This document shows, piece after piece, positions 48,855-59,294 of a DNA stretch of 64,000 nucleotides. The DNA is from Bacillota bacterium (GTDB lineage Bacteria; Bacillota; SHA-98; UBA4971): NCBI GenBank assembly GCA_012516125.1, contig JAAYXB010000094.1, forward strand, positions 62,001 through 126,000, written 5' to 3'. The position numbers and the translations under genes were made by a program. The notes beneath the pieces are model-generated. The model saw only the letters and a list, made by a program, of their open reading frames with translations. It was not told the origin of the DNA and made no database searches. Each line of letters starts with the position of its first letter. Position 1 is the stretch's first letter.

Positions 48855-48911
48855 GTGCCGAATAGCAAGCAGGTGCCGAAAGTTGGGCAAGTTGGGGCAC
48901 GGGTAAGTTGG
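48855..48911 (+). promoter_or_regulatory. Candidate upstream activator site for the sigma-54 promoter
   Basis: GTGCCGAA occurs at 48855 and GTGCCGAAA at 48873, followed by inverted counterparts GGGCA (48885-48889) and GGGGCAC (48894-48900); AAGTTGG occurs three times (near 48880, 48889 and 48904). The cluster lies 65-120 bases upstream of the -24 element, the usual zone for a bacterial enhancer-binding protein. Function is inferred from position only. Confidence 0.4.
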
Positions 48912-48971: not shown

Positions 48972-48987
48972 CGGCATGTAGTTTGCT
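48972..48987 (+). promoter_or_regulatory. Sigma-54 (RpoN)-type promoter of the lysine-fermentation operon
   Basis: CGGCATG, 4 bases, TTGCT: the GG and GC dinucleotides are exactly 10 bases apart and 10 of 11 core positions agree with TGGCAYG-N4-TTGCW. A TATAAT (48988-48993) follows directly but has no -35 partner. The start of kdd is about 130 bases downstream. No enhancer-binding protein gene lies in the window. Confidence 0.6.
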
Positions 48988-49005
48988 TATAATACTGAGT
49001 TGTCG

Positions 49006-49066
49006 GGTGGTCAGCGTACCACGGCAGGGCCACGTGGTGGTCAGCGTAGCTAAGACAGAGCCACGT
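49006..49066 (+). repeat. 30/31-bp tandem duplication in the kdd leader
   Basis: Two adjacent copies (49006-49035, 49036-49066). Both begin GGTGGTCAGCGTA and end GCCACGT; the middles diverge (one base longer in copy 2). Copy 1 contains GTGGT/ACCAC and both contain GTGG/CCAC, so each unit could fold as a hairpin in the RNA. Confidence 0.8.
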
Positions 49067-49116
49067 GCACCGATCTGGCCCGTGGGTAGCAGTGTTTGGA
49101 CACGGAGGGAAAGGCA

Positions 49117-50157
49117 TTGAAGGGATGCAAGTATGGAACGCATCGAGTCATTGAGCCGAAAGGAGTGCTGCCGCAGGCGGCCTGGAAGATCGACAACACC
49201 ATGGTGCCGTACGACAATGAGATCCTCGTCGACGTCGACACTCTAAACGTGGACGCGGCCAGTTTCACTCAGATCAAGCAGCAAGCCGGAGGGGACGACG
49301 ACGAGATAAAGCGAATCATGTTAAGCATCGTGAGAGAGCGGGGGAAGCATCACAACCCCGTCACAGGCTCCGGAGGCATGTTCATCGGCACGGTCCGCGA
49401 GATCGGACCAGAGCTTGTGGGAAAGGTGAATCTCAAACCCGGCGATAGGATAGCGAGCCTGGTTTCGCTTTCCCTGACGCCCCTTGTCATCGAGGAGATC
49501 CTCGAGATACGCAAGGACACGGACCAGGTCAAGATCAGGGGCCAGGCCATCCTGTTCGAGAGCGGCATCTGGGCGGTGCTGCCTTGCGACATGCCCGCCT
49601 CTCTCGCCCTCGCGGTGCTCGATGTCGCCGGCGCTCCCGCTCAGACGGCGAAGCTGGTGAGGCCAGGGGACACGGTCCTCGTCATAGGGGCGGGCGGCAA
49701 GTCGGGCCTATTGTGCCTCTATGAAGCGAAGAAGCGAGCGGGTGTAACCGGAAAGGTGCTGGGTCTTGCGCACAGCCAGGCCAGCCTCGATCGCGTTATC
49801 GAGTCCGGCCTCGCGGACAACGCTTTCTCAGCTGACGCTACGCGGCCGCTCGAGGTGTTCGAGAAGGTGGGCGAGCTTACCTCCGGCAAACTTGCCGATA
49901 TCACGATCAACTGCGTGAACATCCCCGGCACCGAGATGGCGTCCATCATGGCCACGCGCGATAAAGGCATCGTGTACTTCTTCAGCATGGCGACGAGCTT
50001 CACCGCGGCTGCACTGGGCGCCGAGGGAATCGGCAAGGATGTCACCATGATCATCGGCAATGGTTACACCGAGGGGCACGCGGAAATAGCCCTTGCGACG
50101 CTCAGGGAGAGCCCGGTCCTTATGGAGATGTTCCTGAAAAGATGGGCGGCCGGATGA
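49117..50157 (+). CDS. kdd: L-erythro-3,5-diaminohexanoate dehydrogenase
   Basis: About 346 residues. N-terminal GTHRVIEPKGVLPQAAWKID, YDNEILVDVDTLNVDAASFT, then GGMFIGTVREIG and a Rossmann segment DTVLVIGAGGKSGLLCLYEA. It oxidatively deaminates 3,5-diaminohexanoate to 3-keto-5-aminohexanoate with NAD(P)+, step 3 of lysine fermentation. TTG 49117 has GGAGG with 8-base spacing; TTG 49096 is unlikely. First gene of the operon, next to kamA. Confidence 0.9.
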   Translation: MKGCKYGTHRVIEPKGVLPQAAWKIDNTMVPYDNEILVDVDTLNVDAASFTQIKQQAGGDDDEIKRIMLSIVRERGKHHNPVTGSGGMFIGTVREIGPELVGKVNLKPGDRIASLVSLSLTPLVIEEILEIRKDTDQVKIRGQAILFESGIWAVLPCDMPASLALAVLDVAGAPAQTAKLVRPGDTVLVIGAGGKSGLLCLYEAKKRAGVTGKVLGLAHSQASLDRVIESGLADNAFSADATRPLEVFEKVGELTSGKLADITINCVNIPGTEMASIMATRDKGIVYFFSMATSFTAAALGAEGIGKDVTMIIGNGYTEGHAEIALATLRESPVLMEMFLKRWAAG

Positions 50158-50184
50158 CGGCCGCCGAAGGAGATGGCGGCCTGG

Positions 50185-51456
50185 ATGAGACACTTCCGCG
50201 ACATCCCGCTGTGGAAGGATGTCAGTGATAGTGACTGGAACGACTGGCGCTGGCAGATACGAAACAGGGTCACCGATGTCGAGACCCTTAAGAAGGCGGT
50301 GAACCTGACACCGGACGAAGAGGAGGGCGCAAGGCGCTGCCTAGAGCGGTTCCGCATGGCGGTCACGCCATACTATGTGACCCTTATGTCGCCCGACGAC
50401 CCACATTGCCCGGTGAGACGGCAGGGGGTGCCGACCGCGCTCGAGCTGCGCACCATGCCTTACGACATGGTGGACCCCCTGCACGAGGACGTGGACTCGC
50501 CCGTCCCGTACCTCACGCACAGGTACCCGGATAGGGTGCTGCTCCTCGTGACGAACTTCTGCTCCATGTATTGCCGCCACTGCACGAGGCGCAGGCTGGC
50601 GGGACACGAGGACGCGCCGGTGACGAGAAGCGACATCGACCTCGCCATCGACTACATCCGGAGGACCCCCGAGGTGCGCGATGTGCTGGTGTCCGGGGGC
50701 GACCCGCTGGTGCTCGCGGACGATGTGATAGAATACATCCTCCGGTCGCTCAGGTCCATTGACCACGTGGAGGTGATCCGCATCGGGACGAGGACCCCTG
50801 TGGTCCTCCCGCAGAGGATCACCCCAGAGCTTTGCAGCATGTTGAGGAAGTACCACCCCCTGTGGGTGAACACACACTTCAACCACCCGAAGGAGGTTAC
50901 CCCTGAGTCGAAAAGGGCGTGCGAGATGCTGGCGGACGCCGGGATTCCCCTAGGCAACCAGTCGGTGCTCCTGCGCGGCGTGAACGATTGTCCGCACATA
51001 ATGAAGAAGCTCGTGCACGAGCTTGTGAAGATGAGGGTCCGGCCCTACTACATCTACCAGTGCGACCTTTCCATGGGGCTCGAGCACTTCAGGACACCGG
51101 TCGCGAAGGGCATCGAGATCATCGAGCACCTGCGAGGGCACACGTCGGGATTTGCGGTGCCCACGTTCGTGGTGGACGTGCCCGGCGGCGGCGGCAAAAT
51201 CCCTGTGGGGCCACAGTATCTCATCTCTCAGGGTGAGCGTAGGGTGGTGCTGCGTAACTACGAGGGCGTGATCAGCGTATACAACGAGCCCGAATGCTAC
51301 GAAAGCTCTTGCGGCACGTGCACGCTGTGCAAGGAGGCGGAGCGGAGATCCGTCGGGGTCGCGGGGATTCTGGAAGGCGGCGCCGTGAGCCTGGAGCCGA
51401 AAGACCTCGATAGGCGAGCGCGCAGGCGAAAGGGATCGCAGCATTCTCCGGGGTGA
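50185..51456 (+). CDS. kamA: Lysine 2,3-aminomutase
   Basis: About 423 residues, radical SAM/PLP enzyme. N-terminal LWKDVSDSDWNDWRWQIRNR, cluster motif CSMYCRHCTRRR, VLVSGGDPLVL, VIRIGTRTPVVLPQR, and PLP/substrate segments with PTFVVDVPGGGGKIPV. C-terminal CGTCTLC adds zinc ligands. It converts L-lysine to L-beta-lysine, the first step. ATG 50185 is preferred because GAAGGAG directly abuts ATG 50173. Other 2,3-aminomutases (glutamate, arginine) are possible, but neighbours point to lysine. Confidence 0.95.
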   Translation: MRHFRDIPLWKDVSDSDWNDWRWQIRNRVTDVETLKKAVNLTPDEEEGARRCLERFRMAVTPYYVTLMSPDDPHCPVRRQGVPTALELRTMPYDMVDPLHEDVDSPVPYLTHRYPDRVLLLVTNFCSMYCRHCTRRRLAGHEDAPVTRSDIDLAIDYIRRTPEVRDVLVSGGDPLVLADDVIEYILRSLRSIDHVEVIRIGTRTPVVLPQRITPELCSMLRKYHPLWVNTHFNHPKEVTPESKRACEMLADAGIPLGNQSVLLRGVNDCPHIMKKLVHELVKMRVRPYYIYQCDLSMGLEHFRTPVAKGIEIIEHLRGHTSGFAVPTFVVDVPGGGGKIPVGPQYLISQGERRVVLRNYEGVISVYNEPECYESSCGTCTLCKEAERRSVGVAGILEGGAVSLEPKDLDRRARRRKGSQHSPG

Positions 51457-51579
51457 GAGTATCGTGAGCGTATAGCGTATCAGGGGAGGAAGCGCCCGCC
51501 CGGGGTCGGCCGCCGAGAACTCCGGGGTCGACCCGGCAGCCGCTGGAAAACTTGAAAAGCGGCAGGAGTCGTTGACGTC

Positions 51580-52857
51580 ATGCCTGGCTCAAGCAAGGTT
51601 GCGGGCGACGGAAGGGAGGGAGCGACCGCCATGGCAGGCCTGAAGCCCGACATAACCGACATCGTCCTTGCGGCCGGCAGCAGCGTGGCCGTGGTAGGCA
51701 TGGCGAAAAACTGCGGCAAGACCGTGACCCTTGGGGCTACACTCAAGGGGCTTGCCGCGAGGGGGATACCTGTGGGGGTGGCTTCCGCGGGGCGAGATGG
51801 CGAGGACGTGGATGCCGTTACGATGCTGCCGAAGCCCCCGATATGGCTTCCCAGGGGAGCGCTCTTTGCCACCGCCGAGCATCTCGCGGCGAAGGCGCGG
51901 GCCCCGATAGAGCCTGTGGCCGCGACTCGCCATACGTCGGCCCTGGGGCGGCTGGTTGTGTACAGAGCCCTTGCGCCCGGGACGGTGGAGGTGGGCGGCG
52001 GGAACAGCGCTGCCGCCGCGCGGGACGCCGTAGCTCTCATGCGCCAGCTCGGGGCGCGCTTTGTGGCGATCGATGGGGCGGCGGGAAGGAAGTTCTCGTG
52101 CGCTCCGTCGCTCGTCGAAGCCACGGTGCTCGCCACCGGCGCAGCGCTCGCCGAGACCATGGACGGGGCCGTGCGCCGCACCGCTTGCGCCGTGCGGGCC
52201 CTCACAGTGCCGGGATGGGACACCCGAGCAACGGTACGGGTGCCGGGTGGCGTGCTCTCCCGCCGCGACGTGGTGCTGGTCCGCCGCGACGGATCGCTCG
52301 GCCGCCTGTCGGTGCCGAGCGTGCTTCTTCGGGCGGACGAGGTGGCGAGCGCGGTCACAGAAGACCTCGACGCCGTCCTCATCGGAGGCGCTCTTACCAG
52401 CAGCTTCCTGCGCGCGCTTCTGAAGCGGGGCCGGGCCTTCGGCCTTACGGTGGTGGTGCGCGATGCCACAAGGATCCTGGCGGAGCCGGAGGATATCGAA
52501 CGGTTCTGGTCTGCCGGGGGAAAGCTGGCTGCCATACACCCGGTCAGGCTGGTGGCCGTCACGACGAACCCGACGGCGCCCGACGGGCGGCTCTTTGATC
52601 CCGCCCTGTTTCTCGACAGGATGGCGCGGGCGGTGGCGCCTATACCGACATTTGACGTTGTAGCGGGGTTTGCGCGCAATTTCCCGGTTGTGAGCAGGGC
52701 GGGCATGGCGGCGGGCGCGGGAAAGTCGTGCCGGTCCGGCGCGGGCAGACATGTTGTGGCTGCTGCTGGGCGAGAGGGTGCGAGTAGCGAAGCCTTCTCG
52801 CACCAGGCTACGCCGTGCGACGACGCAGAGCTACCGAGGGAGGGGGGAGTTGCGTGA
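51580..52857 (+). CDS. kamB: Probable lysine 5,6-aminomutase reactivase subunit KamB
   Basis: 425 residues from ATG 51580; ATG 51631 (MAGLKPDITD) with GGGAG upstream is equally plausible. A Walker-A-like loop VVGMAKNCGKTVTLGATLKG is near the N-terminus; later segments DGAAGRKFSCAP and DLDAVLIGGALTSSFLRALL fit the protein found between kamA and kamD in lysine fermenters. That family is thought to help reactivate the B12-dependent 5,6-aminomutase. The C-terminal 50 residues are low complexity. I do not see the usual partner, a MutS-like ATPase (KamC). The stop overlaps kamD. Confidence 0.7.
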   Translation: MPGSSKVAGDGREGATAMAGLKPDITDIVLAAGSSVAVVGMAKNCGKTVTLGATLKGLAARGIPVGVASAGRDGEDVDAVTMLPKPPIWLPRGALFATAEHLAAKARAPIEPVAATRHTSALGRLVVYRALAPGTVEVGGGNSAAAARDAVALMRQLGARFVAIDGAAGRKFSCAPSLVEATVLATGAALAETMDGAVRRTACAVRALTVPGWDTRATVRVPGGVLSRRDVVLVRRDGSLGRLSVPSVLLRADEVASAVTEDLDAVLIGGALTSSFLRALLKRGRAFGLTVVVRDATRILAEPEDIERFWSAGGKLAAIHPVRLVAVTTNPTAPDGRLFDPALFLDRMARAVAPIPTFDVVAGFARNFPVVSRAGMAAGAGKSCRSGAGRHVVAAAGREGASSEAFSHQATPCDDAELPREGGVA

Positions 52858-54518
52858 GCAGGATCAACCTGGACATGTCCCTTGTCGAACGGGCAAGGCG
52901 TGCCGCCCGTCACATCGCGGACGGCATAGAGCCCGAGATCGCTGCCAACACCACCACGACCATCGAGAGGACGGTGTTGCGCCTGCTCGGACTGAACGGC
53001 GTGGACGAGGACGGCGTTCCGCTTCCCAACGTGATAGTGGAGCGGGCGCAGGCAGCAGGGCTCCTCGGCGATGGCATCGCATACTGGATAGGGTCTGCGA
53101 TGGTGCATGAGGGACAGTCCGCATCGGAAGTGGCGAAGAGGATCGCCCGCGGGGACCTCCGCCTCGAGGACATCCATCCCGCTGACGAGAAGGCCGTGCG
53201 GGAGGCGGTCGAGGCTGAAGCGGTCCGCATGTGCGCCTACATCAGGGGCCGCCGCCTGGAGCGCGAACGCCTCATAGAGGAGCTCGACACGGCAGAGCCG
53301 CCGTATATCTATGTGATCGTAGCCACGGGCAACATTTATGAAGATGTGACCCAGGCGAAAGCGGCCGCGAAGTGCGGCGCCGACATAATCGCGGTCATCC
53401 GGAGCACGGCCCAGAGCCTGCTGGACTATGTCCCTTACGGTCCGACCACGGAAGGTTACGGCGGGACGTACGCGACCCAGGCCAACTTCAGGATCATGCG
53501 CCAGGCCCTCGACGAGGTGAGCCGCGAGTGCGGCAGGTACATACGCCTCGTGAACTACTGCTCCGGGCTGTGCATGCCCGAGATCGCGGCCATGGGCGCC
53601 ATGGAACGGCTGGACATGATGCTGAACGACGCCATGTACGGCATACTCTTCCGCGATATCAACATGCGACGCACCTTCATCGACCAGCGCTTCTCGCGAA
53701 TGATAAACGCGTACGCCGGGGTAGTCATCAATACTGGCGAGGACAATTACCTCACCACGGCCGACGCCTACGAGCACGCTCATACGGTCCTGGCGTCACA
53801 GTTCATCAACGAGGAGCTTGCTCTGCGCTCGGGGCTTCGGCCTGAGCAGATCGGACTCGGACACGCTTTCCAGATGAACCCCGATATGACAGACGGGTTC
53901 CTCTATGAGCTTGCCCAGGCGGAGATGGCTCGGGCCATATTCCCCGATGCGCCTCTCAAGTACATGCCGCCGACCAAGTACATGACGGGGAACATCTTCA
54001 AGGGCCATCTCATGGATGCCATGTTCAACCTGGCGGGCATCATTTCAGGCCAGACCATCCAGCTCGTGGGCGTCCTCACAGAGCACATACACACTCCGTT
54101 TCTGCAGGACAGGTACCTCGCCATCGAGAATGCCAGATACGTCATGAACAACGCCCGGCACCTCGGATGCGAGATCTCTTACCGGGCCGGCGGAAAGATG
54201 GAGGAGCGAGCCAACGAGGTCCTCACAAGAGCCACGGCCATGCTCGAACAGGTCGCGGAGATCGGGCTCATGTCCGCGATATCGCAGGGGATGTTCGCGG
54301 GGGTGAAAAGAGACCCGCGCGGCGGCCGCGGTCTCGATGGAGTCGTAAGGAAGCGCGACGGGTACTATAATCCATTCGCCGCGCTCCTCATGAAGGAGCT
54401 CTCATCCCCGGGCTTCGCGCCTAAGCTCTGGCACGCCCGGGCGCAGGTACAGTCACACGCGCGGGCGCAGGCACGGGCGCAGGCGCAGGCAGCGGCTGAA
54501 GGGGGGTGCCGGGGATGA
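52854..54518 (+). CDS. kamD: Lysine 5,6-aminomutase alpha subunit
   Basis: About 554 residues. RINLDMSLVERARRAARHIA, YVIVATGNIYEDVTQAKAAA, YGGTYATQANFRIMRQALDE and IQLVGVLTEHIHTPFLQDRY are family segments of the TIM-barrel alpha subunit. With KamE it moves the 6-amino group of beta-lysine to C5 using adenosylcobalamin and PLP. The last 25 or so residues are an Ala-Gln-Arg repeat encoded by CGGGCGCAGGCA-type units, absent from the ordinary family end. GTG 52854 follows GGGGGGAG; kamE starts inside its end. Confidence 0.95.
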   Translation: MSRINLDMSLVERARRAARHIADGIEPEIAANTTTTIERTVLRLLGLNGVDEDGVPLPNVIVERAQAAGLLGDGIAYWIGSAMVHEGQSASEVAKRIARGDLRLEDIHPADEKAVREAVEAEAVRMCAYIRGRRLERERLIEELDTAEPPYIYVIVATGNIYEDVTQAKAAAKCGADIIAVIRSTAQSLLDYVPYGPTTEGYGGTYATQANFRIMRQALDEVSRECGRYIRLVNYCSGLCMPEIAAMGAMERLDMMLNDAMYGILFRDINMRRTFIDQRFSRMINAYAGVVINTGEDNYLTTADAYEHAHTVLASQFINEELALRSGLRPEQIGLGHAFQMNPDMTDGFLYELAQAEMARAIFPDAPLKYMPPTKYMTGNIFKGHLMDAMFNLAGIISGQTIQLVGVLTEHIHTPFLQDRYLAIENARYVMNNARHLGCEISYRAGGKMEERANEVLTRATAMLEQVAEIGLMSAISQGMFAGVKRDPRGGRGLDGVVRKRDGYYNPFAALLMKELSSPGFAPKLWHARAQVQSHARAQARAQAQAAAEGGCRG

Positions 54519-55297
54519 CGGTTTCTGGGGTGAACCTGGATCTTACCAGGGTGCGCCCGTACGGCGATACCCTGGATGATGGGTGGGTGCAGATGAGCTT
54601 CACGCTACCGGTCCCGTGCGGGCCCGAGGCGACCAGGGCAGCGGAGCTGCTGTGCGAGAAGATGGGGCTTGACGACGTGCGGGTGGTGTACAGCCACGAC
54701 ATCGCCGGCAGCTTCACGTTCTTCGTTGTATACGGGAAATGCGTGCATTCGGTGGACTTCACCGCGACCAAGGTTCCAAAGGTCAACATGAAACATATGA
54801 CCTTCGACGAGATAAACGAGTTCATCGAGAGGCGCATTGGCAGGAAGATCGTGGTGGTGGCAGCGTGCACGGGTACAGATGCGCACACTGTTGGGATCGA
54901 TGCCATTATCAACATGAAGGGATATGCCGGCGAGTATGGGCTCGAGCGCTACCCGTGGTTCGTCGCGTACAACCTCGGGAGCCAGGTGCCCAACGAGGTG
55001 CTGGTGGCGAAGGCCATCGAGGTCGGCGCCGACGCCATCTTAGTCTCGCAGGTGGTGACCCAGAAGAACATCCATATCGATAACCTCACCAACCTGGCGG
55101 AGCTTGTCGAGGCTGAGGGCATCCGAGATAAGGTCCTGCTCATAATGGGCGGTCCCAGGATAACCCACGAGCTTGCAGTGGAGCTTGGCTACGACGCCGG
55201 GTTCGGGCCGGGCACCCTTCCATCACATGTCGGCGCGTTCATAGCGCAGGAACTTGCGAGGCGCATGGCCGTCTTTGCGCCCCCTGATGAGGCGTGA
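54515..55297 (+). CDS. kamE: Lysine 5,6-aminomutase beta subunit
   Basis: About 260 residues. The cobalamin-binding motif DAHTVG is in AACTGTDAHTVGIDAIINMK (about residue 127), followed by GLERYPWFVAYNLGSQVPNE and ADAILVSQVVTQKNIHIDNL. An N-terminal domain of about 90 residues supplies the dimerisation/PLP region. ATG 54515 has AGGGGGGTG with about 8-base spacing; GTG 54506 falls in it. Confidence 0.95.
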   Translation: MTVSGVNLDLTRVRPYGDTLDDGWVQMSFTLPVPCGPEATRAAELLCEKMGLDDVRVVYSHDIAGSFTFFVVYGKCVHSVDFTATKVPKVNMKHMTFDEINEFIERRIGRKIVVVAACTGTDAHTVGIDAIINMKGYAGEYGLERYPWFVAYNLGSQVPNEVLVAKAIEVGADAILVSQVVTQKNIHIDNLTNLAELVEAEGIRDKVLLIMGGPRITHELAVELGYDAGFGPGTLPSHVGAFIAQELARRMAVFAPPDEA

Positions 55298-55432
55298 CGG
55301 AACGGTGCCGTCTGACTGGTGGCGAATACGAAGAGCTGGCTAGCAAAGGGGGCTGAGGTGACGCCGCGGCGTGGGGGCGGCGGGGCAGGAGGCTGTAGAA
55401 TGGCGTGCGGGCCGATGGGAGGAGGTGGCGGC

Positions 55433-55834
55433 ATGGAAGAGTCCCTGATAAGAGTGAGAATGAGCCAGCAGGATAGCCACTACGGTGGGGGAATAGTTGA
55501 CGGCGGGCGGCTCATGCAGCTTCTGGGCGACGTGGCGACCGAGCTTCTCATCCGGCACGACGGCGACGAGGGGTTGTTCCGGGCGTATGACAATGTGGAG
55601 TTCCTGGTGCCGGTGTACGCGGGAGACTACCTCGAGGCGAGGGGACGCATCACCGCTGTGGGCGACACGTCGCGCAAGATGGAGTTCACCATCCACAAGG
55701 TGATCGCCTCGGTGGCCCAGGATTCGTCGGCTGCTGAGGTGCTCCCCGAGCCAGTGCTGGTGCTCCGGGCGAGCGGAACGTGCGTCGTTCCGAAAGACAG
55801 GCAACGCAGGAGGGGCAAGCGTGACGACGGATAA
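55433..55834 (+). CDS. kal: 3-aminobutyryl-CoA ammonia-lyase
   Basis: About 133 residues, hotdog fold. [40 protein letters not shown] and [20 protein letters not shown] define Kal. It eliminates ammonia from 3-aminobutyryl-CoA to give crotonyl-CoA. ATG 55433 has GGAGGAGGTGG with about 6-base spacing; the frame is open back to 55319 but that part is Gly-rich and non-conserved. The stop overlaps kce by 14 bases. Confidence 0.92.
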
Positions 55835-56648
55835 GCTCATCATAACCGTGGCGCTGACGGGCGCGGAGACCACGAGGGCGGACAACCCGAATCTCCCGCT
55901 TGCGCCGGAGGAGATCGCGGAGGCGGCGGCAGAGGCGCGTGGCGCCGGGGCATCCATCATTCACCTTCACGTCCGCGATAGCGATGGCAGGCCCACCCAG
56001 GACATCGAGGTGTTCCGGAGGACGATCGCCCTGATCCACGAGAAATGCGACTGCATAGTCCAGATCTCCACCGGCGGCGCGGTAGGCACCCCACCGGAGG
56101 AAAGGCTTCGCCCACTGGACCTCGTCCCGGAGATGGCGACCCTGACCTGCGGCACCGTGAACTTCGGGGAGGGCGTGTTTGAGAACCCTCCACAGCTCAT
56201 TGAGGCTTTCGCAAGGAAAATGGCTGAGCTGGGTATAAAGCCGGAGCTTGAGGTTTTCGATGTCGGCATGGTAGCGAACGCCTTGAGGCTCGCGAAGCAG
56301 GGACTCGTCAAAGAGCCTCTGTACTTCGACTTTGTGATGGGGGTCCCGGGGGGAATTCCCGGGACCATCGATAACCTCCTGCACCTGGCGCACCAGATTC
56401 CAGCGGGGGCCATGTGGCAGGTGGCAGGGGTGGGCAGGACCGAGCTTCCCCTCGCGGTGGTGGCCATAGTCGCCGGCGGCCACGTCAGGGTCGGATTCGA
56501 GGATAACGTCTATTACTCCAGAGGCGTGCTGGCCGAGAGCAACGCGCAGCTTGTGGCTCGCATCGCGCGCATCGCGCGGGAGGTGGGAAGGGAGGTGGCC
56601 ACCCCCGCGGAGGCCAGGCAGATGCTGGGGATCACGCGGGGCAGGTGA
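55821..56648 (+). CDS. kce: 3-keto-5-aminohexanoate cleavage enzyme
   Basis: 275 residues, DUF849/BKACE family TIM barrel. [40 protein letters not shown] (zinc His-x-His), and [20 protein letters not shown] with [17 protein letters not shown]. With acetyl-CoA it cleaves 3-keto-5-aminohexanoate to acetoacetate and 3-aminobutyryl-CoA. GTG 55821 follows GGAGGGG. The 133 bases after the gene show no promoter I trust. Confidence 0.94.
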
Positions 56649-56781
56649 TCCTGGGTCATGGGGGGCGGGGGCGGCCTTCGTTTCGAGGGCAACCCCTTGT
56701 CGTCTGTGTGGTCTGGCCGCAGGAAGCTATAAGAACAACTGGATATTCCAAGCGTGGGAGAGCCGCGAAGGAGGGCTGTAG

Positions 56782-57435
56782 ATGAGCAAGGTGAAATCCA
56801 TCGCCGAGGCGGTGGACCTTCTTCACGACGGGATGACGGTGATGCTTCCGGGGTTCCTGGGGGTGGGGACTCCAAAGGCGTTCATCGACGCCATATGTGC
56901 AAAGGGCATCAGGGACCTCACGGTCATCTACAACGATGGCGCGTTCCCTGATGTGGGCTTCGGGAAGCTCGTCAGGCGGGGCCTCGTGCGAAAGCTCATC
57001 GGGACGCACATCGGCACCAATCCGGAACTCGTCAAGCTGGTCGCGGAAAAGAAAATCGATCTCGAGCTGTATCCCCAGGGCACGCTGGTTGAGAAGATCA
57101 GGGCGGCTGGCGCAGGCCTCGGGGGGGTCCTCACGCCCACGGGGGTGGGCACAGCTGTCGAGGAGGGCAAGACCATCATGGAGATCGGCGGAAAGACCTA
57201 CCTCCTCGAGCTACCGCTACACGCGGACGTTGCGTTGCTATACGCTCATATCGGGGACACGTTCGGGAACCTTGTTTACCGGAGGGCGGCCAGGAACTTC
57301 AACCCGATAATGGCTACGGCTGCGGACCTTGTCATTGCCGAGGTCGCAAACCTGGTCGAGGCAGGGGAGATCGACCCCGACCACGTCATGACGCCCGGGA
57401 TCTTCGTGGACGTTGTCGTGAGGGGGTGCGAGTGA
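56782..57435 (+). CDS. atoD: CoA-transferase subunit A (butyrate-acetoacetate type)
   Basis: 217 residues. The family I CoA-transferase alpha motif is VMLPGFLGVGTPKAFIDAI; GTHIGTNPELVKL, ELYPQGTLVEKIRAAGAGLG and GVLTPTGVGTAVEEGK follow. In this context it probably activates acetoacetate from Kce using butyryl-CoA, releasing butyrate. ATG 56782 follows GAAGGAGGG. Subunit B starts in its last base. Confidence 0.92.
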   Translation: MSKVKSIAEAVDLLHDGMTVMLPGFLGVGTPKAFIDAICAKGIRDLTVIYNDGAFPDVGFGKLVRRGLVRKLIGTHIGTNPELVKLVAEKKIDLELYPQGTLVEKIRAAGAGLGGVLTPTGVGTAVEEGKTIMEIGGKTYLLELPLHADVALLYAHIGDTFGNLVYRRAARNFNPIMATAADLVIAEVANLVEAGEIDPDHVMTPGIFVDVVVRGCE

Positions 57436-58097
57436 TGGGTGCTGATGTGAGCCGTGAGCTGATAGCAAGGAGGATCGCGCGGGAACTAAAGGGCGGCGAG
57501 GTCGTGAACCTCGGCATAGGCACGCCGACGCTGGTCGCTAACTACATTACGCCAGAGATGAACATCACTCTGCACTCGGAAAACGGATTTGTTGGCCTCG
57601 GGCCAGCTCCTGCGCCGGGCGAGGAGATCTCCGACCTTGTGAACGCGGGCGGGCAGCCGGTCACCGTTCTGCCGGGAGCGTGCTTCTTCGACACGGCGAT
57701 GTCCTTCGCGATAATACGGGGTGGACACATCGATGTGACCGTGCTCGGGGCGCTCGAGGTTGACGAGGAGGGAAGCCTCGCCAACTGGTGGATACCGGCG
57801 AAGGGCGGACCGGGCATGGGCGGCGGGATGGACCTCGTGGTGGGGGCGAAGCGGGTCATCGTTGCGATGGAGCACACTAGAAAGGATGGCACGCCGAAAA
57901 TCGTCCCGAGATGCACCATGCCTGTGACGGCGAAGGGCGAAGTCGATCTGATCGTCACCGACATGGCCGTCATTGAGGTTACGAGGGAAGGCTTGGTCCT
58001 CAGGGAGGTGGCCCCAGGCGTATCGGTGTCGGATGTTCTGGCGAAGACCGCAGCGCGTCTTATCGTGCCTGACGAAGTCAAAGAAATGGTAGCATAA
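57435..58097 (+). CDS. atoA: CoA-transferase subunit B (butyrate-acetoacetate type)
   Basis: About 220 residues. VVNLGIGTPTLVANYITPEM and the catalytic Glu in HSENGFVGLGPAP; SLANWWIPAKGGPGMGGGMD and PVTAKGEVDLIVTDMAVIEV follow. Forms the active enzyme with subunit A. ATG 57435 has AGGGGGTG upstream and shares one base with the preceding stop. Last lysine-operon gene; an RNA methyltransferase starts 24 bases later and may be co-transcribed. Confidence 0.93.
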   Translation: MGADVSRELIARRIARELKGGEVVNLGIGTPTLVANYITPEMNITLHSENGFVGLGPAPAPGEEISDLVNAGGQPVTVLPGACFFDTAMSFAIIRGGHIDVTVLGALEVDEEGSLANWWIPAKGGPGMGGGMDLVVGAKRVIVAMEHTRKDGTPKIVPRCTMPVTAKGEVDLIVTDMAVIEVTREGLVLREVAPGVSVSDVLAKTAARLIVPDEVKEMVA

Positions 58098-58121: not shown

Positions 58122-59294
58122 ATGGCATACGTGGCGTTGAAACGGGGAAGGGAAGGCCGCGCCAGGGCGCATCACCCGTGGGTTTATGCCGGCGAGATCG
58201 ATGTGGTCGCGGGAGACCCTGTACCGGGCGACATCGTGGACGTGGTTGACTACAGGAAGAGGTTCCTCGGGCGAGGCTTCATCAACCCTGTATCCAGCAT
58301 CACCGTGAGGATACTCACCTGGGACGAGCAAGAGGTTGATGAGGGCTTCTTTTACAGGAGGCTCGCCGCAGCCCGCGATTACCGGAGGACTGTGGGGGCG
58401 GAGGCACCTTGTTATCGGGTAGTGTTCAGCGATGGCGACATGCTGTCGTCGCTCATCGTTGACAGGTACGAGGATGTCTGCGTGGTTCAGACCCTCGCTC
58501 TCGGCATGGATGTGAGAAAGGAGATGATCACGGCCGCGCTGCGGGACCTCCTGGGAGTAGCCAGAATTTACGAACGTAACGACTCCCGGGCGCGGGACCT
58601 GGAGGGCCTTGACCAGAGGTCGGGCTTCCTCGGGGACGAGTTTCCGACAGCGTTCTGGGTCCAGGAGAACGGCCTGGCCTTCTGGGTGGACGTCGCACGA
58701 GGTCAGAAGACCGGCCTTTTCCTTGACCAGCGGGAGAATCACAGGGCCATCGCCCCGTGGTGCGACGGGGCGCGGGTGCTGGACGCGTTCTGCTACACGG
58801 GCGGGTTTGCGATCCACGCCGCAGCTTTCGGCGCGCGCGAGGTCTTGGCGCTGGACTCGTCGGCGACGGCCCTCGAAATCGCCAGGTTGAACGCGGAGAA
58901 GAACGGGTTCGGAGAGAGGATATCATTGATTGAGGGGAACGCCTTCGATGTGCTGAGGCAGCTCGAAGCCGAGGGTGAGCGTTTCGACCTCGTCGTCGTT
59001 GACCCGCCTGCTTTTGCCCCGGGCAAGCATGCCGCTCTGGCCGCCTACAGGGGCTATAAGGAAGTAAACCTCCGCGCCATGAAGATCCTCGCACCTGGCG
59101 GCGTCCTCGTTACATGCTCCTGCTCGTACCACATGAAGCCGGAGATGTTCATCGCTATGCTCGCCGACGCCGCGGCTGACGTGGGCAGGGAGGCCAAGCT
59201 GGTGGAGCTGAGGACCCAGGCGAGGGACCATCCGATCCTCCTGGGCGTGGAGGAGACCCACTACCTCAAGTGCGCCATCGTCCGCGTCAGTTGA
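58122..59294 (+). CDS. rlmI: Class I rRNA methyltransferase, RlmI-like
   Basis: 390 residues. An N-terminal PUA domain (HHPWVYAGEIDVVAGDPVPG), then a middle EEHEE-like domain, then a Rossmann methyltransferase with GQKTGLFLDQRENHRAIAPW, VLDAFCYTGGFAIHAAAFGA, VVVDPPAFAPGKHAALAAY and VTCSCSYHMKPEMF. RlmI methylates C1962 of 23S rRNA; Bacillota homologues are assumed similar. A 6-bp ACGGCC/GGCCGT hairpin (59298-59312) follows without a T-tract. Confidence 0.9.
   Translation: MAYVALKRGREGRARAHHPWVYAGEIDVVAGDPVPGDIVDVVDYRKRFLGRGFINPVSSITVRILTWDEQEVDEGFFYRRLAAARDYRRTVGAEAPCYRVVFSDGDMLSSLIVDRYEDVCVVQTLALGMDVRKEMITAALRDLLGVARIYERNDSRARDLEGLDQRSGFLGDEFPTAFWVQENGLAFWVDVARGQKTGLFLDQRENHRAIAPWCDGARVLDAFCYTGGFAIHAAAFGAREVLALDSSATALEIARLNAEKNGFGERISLIEGNAFDVLRQLEAEGERFDLVVVDPPAFAPGKHAALAAYRGYKEVNLRAMKILAPGGVLVTCSCSYHMKPEMFIAMLADAAADVGREAKLVELRTQARDHPILLGVEETHYLKCAIVRVS

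Follow-up and report, generated by a model that had tools for sequence, protein, structure and literature searches.

The control of lysine catabolism by sigma-54 has been described in Bacillus thuringiensis HD73, where the enhancer-binding protein (EBP) KamR and sigma-54 control kamA, as described in a later account (Zhang et al. 2014, via PMC4428206). In that account, the target of KamR is the kamA operon HD73_2540-2541 of an aerobic spore-former, the EBP gene HD73_2539 lies adjacent to it, and kamA is under the control of sigma-54 and later of sigma-K (PMC4428206). In the Clostridiales, a survey of sigma-54 regulons for amino-acid catabolism distinguished 39 EBP groups, e.g., PrdR, OrdR, HiaR, and LeuR (PMC6615313). 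A lysine or kdd/kam target is absent among the 39 groups in Table 1 of that survey.

A stretch of 64,000 nucleotides from a Bacillota bacterium, called the window hereafter, carries a lysine fermentation operon that can be compared with both systems. The KamR system and the present one are alike by description, in that a lysine 2,3-aminomutase gene would be controlled from a -24/-12 promoter by an EBP with a PAS domain. In contrast to the KamR target, the operon of the window begins with kdd and encodes the whole fermentation pathway of the lysine-to-butyrate type; the EBP gene, adjacent in B. thuringiensis, is unlinked in the window's genome. The features shared with the Clostridiales regulons are an amino-acid fermentation operon, a -24/-12 element, a dedicated EBP, and an EBP-specific palindrome (PMC6615313). 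Given the KamR precedent and 39 Clostridiales EBP groups without a kdd target, the kdd switch is a further case of a known class, and sigma-54/EBP control of the kdd operon fits this class of bacterial switches.

The initial annotation considered kdd the first of nine genes in a row, and NCBIfam models did name nine genes on the forward strand (49117-58097). The first, kdd (49117-50157), encodes L-erythro-3,5-diaminohexanoate dehydrogenase (NF052381, 273.8 bits against a cut-off of 200; PDB 7dl3). It is followed by kamA for lysine 2,3-aminomutase (50173-51456; TIGR03820), kamB for the lysine 5,6-aminomutase reactivase (51580-52857; NF052386), kamD and kamE for the alpha and beta subunits of lysine 5,6-aminomutase (52815-54518; NF052384 and 54506-55297; NF052385), kal for 3-aminobutyryl-CoA ammonia lyase (55319-55834; NF052388), kce for the 3-keto-5-aminohexanoate cleavage enzyme (55821-56648; NF052387), and the CoA-transferase subunits A (56782-57435; TIGR02429) and B (57426-58097; TIGR02428), the latter being the ninth and last gene. 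All of these scored above the cut-offs of their models. A 23S rRNA methyltransferase-like gene (58122-59294) starts 25 bp past the last fermentation gene and may be co-transcribed by read-through from the operon.

The promoter candidate upstream of kdd is CGGCATGTAGTTTGCT at 48972-48987 on the forward strand. The letters bear out the sigma-54 core with 10-base spacing that had been claimed for it: the GG of the -24 element lies at 48973-48974, the GC of the -12 element at 48985-48986, and exactly 10 bases separate them. Compared with the 16-base consensus TGGCAC-N5-TTGCW, the site has two mismatches at exact spacing, and base -25 is C instead of T. Since the spacing is exact, the kdd transcript is expected to start at about 48998, which would give a leader of about 119 nt (48998-49116, forward strand) as judged from the position of the -12 element. 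A ribosome-binding site, GGAGGG, is found at 49104-49109 (forward strand), and TTG at 49117 is most likely the start codon of kdd. The leader contains a 13-bp direct repeat, GGTGGTCAGCGTA, at 49006-49018 and 49036-49048 (30 bp apart), which is kept in the closest species only. A riboswitch or structured leader was rejected, as the leader has no match in Rfam and its fold is ordinary.

Within the 64-kb window, the bare -24/-12 motif occurs at chance level (99 matches to TGGCACG-N4-TTGCW with up to three mismatches, 93.7 expected), and its significance comes from comparison. The family sample consisted of 13 genomes, 12 of which have kdd sequence; G007 has kdd fragments only, at a contig edge. 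A -24/-12 element with zero to two mismatches is present upstream of kdd in all 11 family loci with an intact upstream region, the comparison with relatives that the initial annotation had proposed. Its variants include TGGCATGTAGTTTGCT, TGGCACATAGTTTGCA, CGGCACGCGCTTTGCT, and TGGCACGAAACTTGCA, the last being an exact match found in L018. The flanking sequence has diverged among the family loci, the closest three species excepted.

Beyond the family, kdd loci were collected by peptide patterns and the best 80 were kept, so that the following counts describe this sample and not lysine fermenters at large. Enough upstream DNA for the promoter comparison was available in 78 of these 80 loci (Clostridia, Tissierellia, and others), of which six belong to family genomes and the remainder are more distant. 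An exact TGGCA-N6-TTGCW lies no more than 400 bp upstream of kdd in 57 of the 78 loci, with 0.1 expected from dinucleotide shuffles; allowing one mismatch, the count is 68, with 1.5 expected. The reading of 48972-48987 as a sigma-54 promoter is supported by this retention in the family and in the wider kdd loci, and on these comparative grounds we regard the site as a real sigma-54 promoter.

A perfect TATAAT (48988-48993, forward strand) directly follows the -12 element. It has no -35 partner: as stated in the initial annotation, there is no matching -35, the best hexamer at spacings of 15-19 bp agreeing at two of six positions, and a scan for sigma-A promoters returned none. Since base -25 is C and a perfect TATAAT adjoins the site, some sigma-A read-through is possible. 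A dual promoter might thus be envisaged, with sigma-54 responsible for a regulated burst and sigma-A, acting through the TATAAT, for a low basal level. The conservation of the TATAAT next to the -12 element in most members of the genus is in line with it, as is the dual control of B. thuringiensis kamA by sigma-54 and then sigma-K reported in PMC4428206. The missing -35 speaks against it, and AT-rich stretches 3' of the -12 element are common at sigma-54 promoters, so that the TATAAT is possibly incidental. On balance, such a dual arrangement seems unlikely.

In addition to the -24/-12 element, the kdd loci of the family share two 16-bp palindromes, 18 bp apart, with the consensus TGCCNAANNTTNGGCA, whose centres precede the -24 element by about 90-135 bp. 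The pair in the window lies about 90-110 bp upstream. Its first predicted activator site is the imperfect palindrome TGCCGAATAGCAAGCA (48856-48871, forward strand), whose position and spacing are conserved in the family and which is degraded in L014. The second, TGCCGAAAGTTGGGCA (48874-48889, forward strand), is conserved in the family and in wider relatives, and the 3.24-Mb genome has no other perfect match to TGCCGAANNTTNGGCA. In the 12 family genomes that have kdd sequence, a well-matched tandem element was found upstream of kdd only; elsewhere, it carries three mismatches. Further strong targets of the palindrome in the window's genome were rejected: single matches with up to two mismatches were near the control count (72, and 62 for a reversed pattern), and no good -24/-12 lies near the one-mismatch palindromes on C30, C96, and C84:103051.

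The distance from palindrome centre to -24 element ranges from 58 to 224 bp and changes in steps of about 11 bp (58, 69, 79, 90, 101, 112). The phasing is marked (Rayleigh R 0.58-0.67, p about 0.0006, with up to two mismatches and similar loci thinned; p 0.007-0.008 for the stricter one-mismatch palindrome set), as expected of two proteins which meet across a DNA loop on the same face of the helix, and counts as supporting evidence only because the test was devised post hoc on data already seen. In L044, L053, L055, and L066, a palindrome lies 3' of the EBP gene and is followed by a T run, resembling a terminator hairpin, so that it possibly doubles as the terminator of the EBP gene. A few of the palindrome matches at C22-type loci (see below) may have both roles or the terminator role alone.

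Sigma-54 promoters require a sigma factor and an activator, and the initial annotation had named the lack of rpoN as grounds for abandoning its reading. The genome search which it proposed returned one full rpoN. Twelve full EBPs are encoded in the genome and none of them inside the window, in agreement with the earlier observation that no activator gene is present there. One of the 12 is a PAS-AAA+-HTH protein of 515 aa encoded on contig C22 (about 56523-58070), in the same genome and unlinked to the operon. Its PAS_4/PAS, Sigma54_activat, and HTH_8 domains scored above cut-off, an AAA lid is also present, and its GAFTGA-type loop reads GSFTGA. An identification of C22 as PrdR was rejected, the best NCBIfam equivalog being NF041552 (PrdR) with 376.5 bits and a cut-off of 795.

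Among the best 80 wide loci, kdd is immediately preceded by an EBP gene in 52, and for 41 of those kdd-adjacent EBPs the best match in the window's genome is C22. A maximum-likelihood tree groups C22 with the kdd-adjacent EBPs at 100/100 and separates it from the genome's 11 remaining EBPs. In the reverse search, the best match of C22 was the kdd-linked EBP in all 14 whole genomes, as established by comparing coordinates. Best matches in both directions and a shared clade identify C22 as orthologous to the EBP that lies next to kdd in most relatives. Each of the 12 family genomes in which kdd sequence is present has an ortholog with at least 70% identity. The one that lacks kdd contains a 55% homolog at most; as a homolog is kept there, the regulator may have further targets.

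The class of EBP and the type of palindrome go together. At loci with a C22-class EBP, TGCCNAANNTTNGGCA is found with up to two mismatches in 28 of 41 cases (1.15 expected). It is found at none of the 11 loci whose EBP has a Kdd-like sensor (described below), and eight of these 11 have GAACCG-N4-CGGTTC instead, with zero expected (Fisher 4e-5 and 2e-7 for class against type). In most family genomes, a palindrome of the same kind as the kdd sites also precedes the C22 gene, and C22 may thus be autoregulated. One instance, TGCCCAAATATAGGCG, lies at L169:6447-6462, 77 bp ahead of the C22 EBP gene. The conserved promoter, the tandem palindromes, and the unlinked ortholog of the PAS type support the earlier proposal of EBP-dependent control in trans; the two points which that proposal omitted are the upstream palindromes and the identity of the activator, which is very probably C22.

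A sigma-54-dependent promoter served by one of the other 11 EBPs is improbable. It would agree with the unlinked position of C22 in the window's genome and with the PAS-like regions of several further EBPs, but C22 is orthologous to the kdd-linked EBPs, the palindromes are specific to the EBP class, and a matching palindrome lies ahead of the C22 gene in most family genomes. Some of the other EBPs, on contigs C53 and C43 of the window's genome (L112:4555-7287 and L114:3081-4799, both on the reverse strand), have ferredoxin-like N-terminal regions, and the C53a EBP has an additional long cysteine-containing N-terminal region. These features suggest redox-sensing sigma-54 activators.

That an ordinary sigma-A promoter drives the operon through the TATAAT, with the -24/-12 match as a coincidence, is very hard to maintain: the hexamer is perfect and five of the six genus members keep it, but there is no -35 (see above) and no TG one base ahead of it, the -24/-12 recurs far outside the genus, and L013 and the second genus lack the TATAAT yet keep the -24/-12, which speaks for sigma-54 instead of sigma-A as the reader under constraint.

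We therefore return to sigma-54 and C22. It is highly likely that the nine-gene operon is controlled by the sigma-54 promoter at 48972-48987 together with the C22 EBP on 48856-48889 and ATP-driven opening. The C22 EBP would bind the tandem palindromes, and its PAS domain would sense lysine or a pathway metabolite, so that the AAA+ ring is released and oligomerises. By DNA looping, the oligomer would then reach the sigma-54 holoenzyme poised at the -24/-12 element, contact it via the GSFTGA loop, and drive promoter opening at the expense of ATP. One transcript covering kdd-kamA-kamB-kamD-kamE-kal-kce and the CoA-transferase A/B genes would be expected. The binding, signal, and opening steps are inferred from the established mechanism of EBPs.

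Another type of sensor seems to have been recruited in other relatives. In 11 of the best 80 kdd loci, Clostridium aminobutyricum included, the kdd-adjacent EBP has a Kdd-like N-terminus (L033, L036, L038, L039, L046, L048, L065, L086, L089, L099, and L101; e.g., L101:7589-9679, forward strand). One uninterrupted frame of about 690 codons encodes the protein; its first 345 residues or so are homologous to Kdd, and the remainder comprises a sigma-54 AAA+ domain and HTH_50. The Kdd-like domain is 28-33% identical to the kdd product of the same locus over 330-345 residues (E 1e-41 to 1e-55), and it matches PDB 7dl3 over residues 4-343 (E 3e-28). With the NCBIfam Kdd model, it reaches 145-155 bits, below the cut-off of 200. 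An AlphaFold model from an 11-row alignment had a pLDDT of 57 and was set aside; the homology rests on sequence. At this level, the fusion of Kdd with a sigma-54 EBP is itself well established.

The domain is degenerate. It retains 48 of the positions invariant in Kdd and has lost 67, among them the nucleotide loop G201-K202-S203-G204 and the SMATSFT stretch; the loop GGGGKSG of Kdd has become GNNLLTN-like in the sensor. The Kdd-like domain probably senses a diamino acid and would signal directly to the AAA+ motor. Lysine fermentation under sigma-54 with two unrelated sensors, a PAS domain and a degenerate Kdd whose probable signal is 3,5-diaminohexanoate or another beta-amino acid related to it, is a likely reading. 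The 12 full EBPs encoded in the window's genome all lack the Kdd-sensor architecture.

In a scan of 291 genomes from one class, six genomes were found to encode about 10 fusion-sized Kdd-sensor proteins. C. aminobutyricum accounts for four of these proteins, and some adjoin CoA-transferase/thiolase/aminotransferase or kdd-kal-kce-transporter clusters. Three further paralogs in C. aminobutyricum are located at L184:4796-6871, L185:5061-7256, and L186:5022-7127; the one in L185 adjoins CoA-transferase, thiolase, and aminotransferase-like genes. In L187 (8561-10609, reverse strand), a Kdd-sensor EBP is found upstream of a divergent kdd-kal-kce set with transporter genes, a cluster which possibly belongs to a different beta-amino-acid pathway. 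Two of the fusion-sized proteins, the Kdd-sensor regulators at L190:3516-5636 and L191:3317-5383, do not have the GAFTGA loop, and the region upstream of kdd at these two loci showed no -24/-12, yet rpoN is present; judging by their sequences, it is as if these regulators had departed from sigma-54. The loss of rpoN as the cause of the missing promoter in some relatives was rejected, as 16 of the 17 genomes searched have rpoN.

Enzyme-derived sensor domains are known from MocR/GabR-type regulators, and the Kdd-sensor EBPs of the relatives likewise use an enzyme fold as a sensor. In contrast to the MocR/GabR type, these EBPs join a sigma-54 AAA+ activator to the fold of Kdd, the enzyme encoded by the first gene of the operon itself. 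The literature searched, with most subscription journals outside it, contained no description of this architecture, and a worn-down enzyme of the operon as the sensor of its activator looks new.

The circuit, which is conserved over Clostridia and Tissierellia, offers a testable set of activator, DNA site, and promoter for lysine fermentation. With their matched DNA sites, the two EBP classes represent a natural experiment in regulator replacement. If true, the Kdd-derived sensor would clearly illustrate the conversion of a pathway enzyme into a sensor by which its own operon is controlled.
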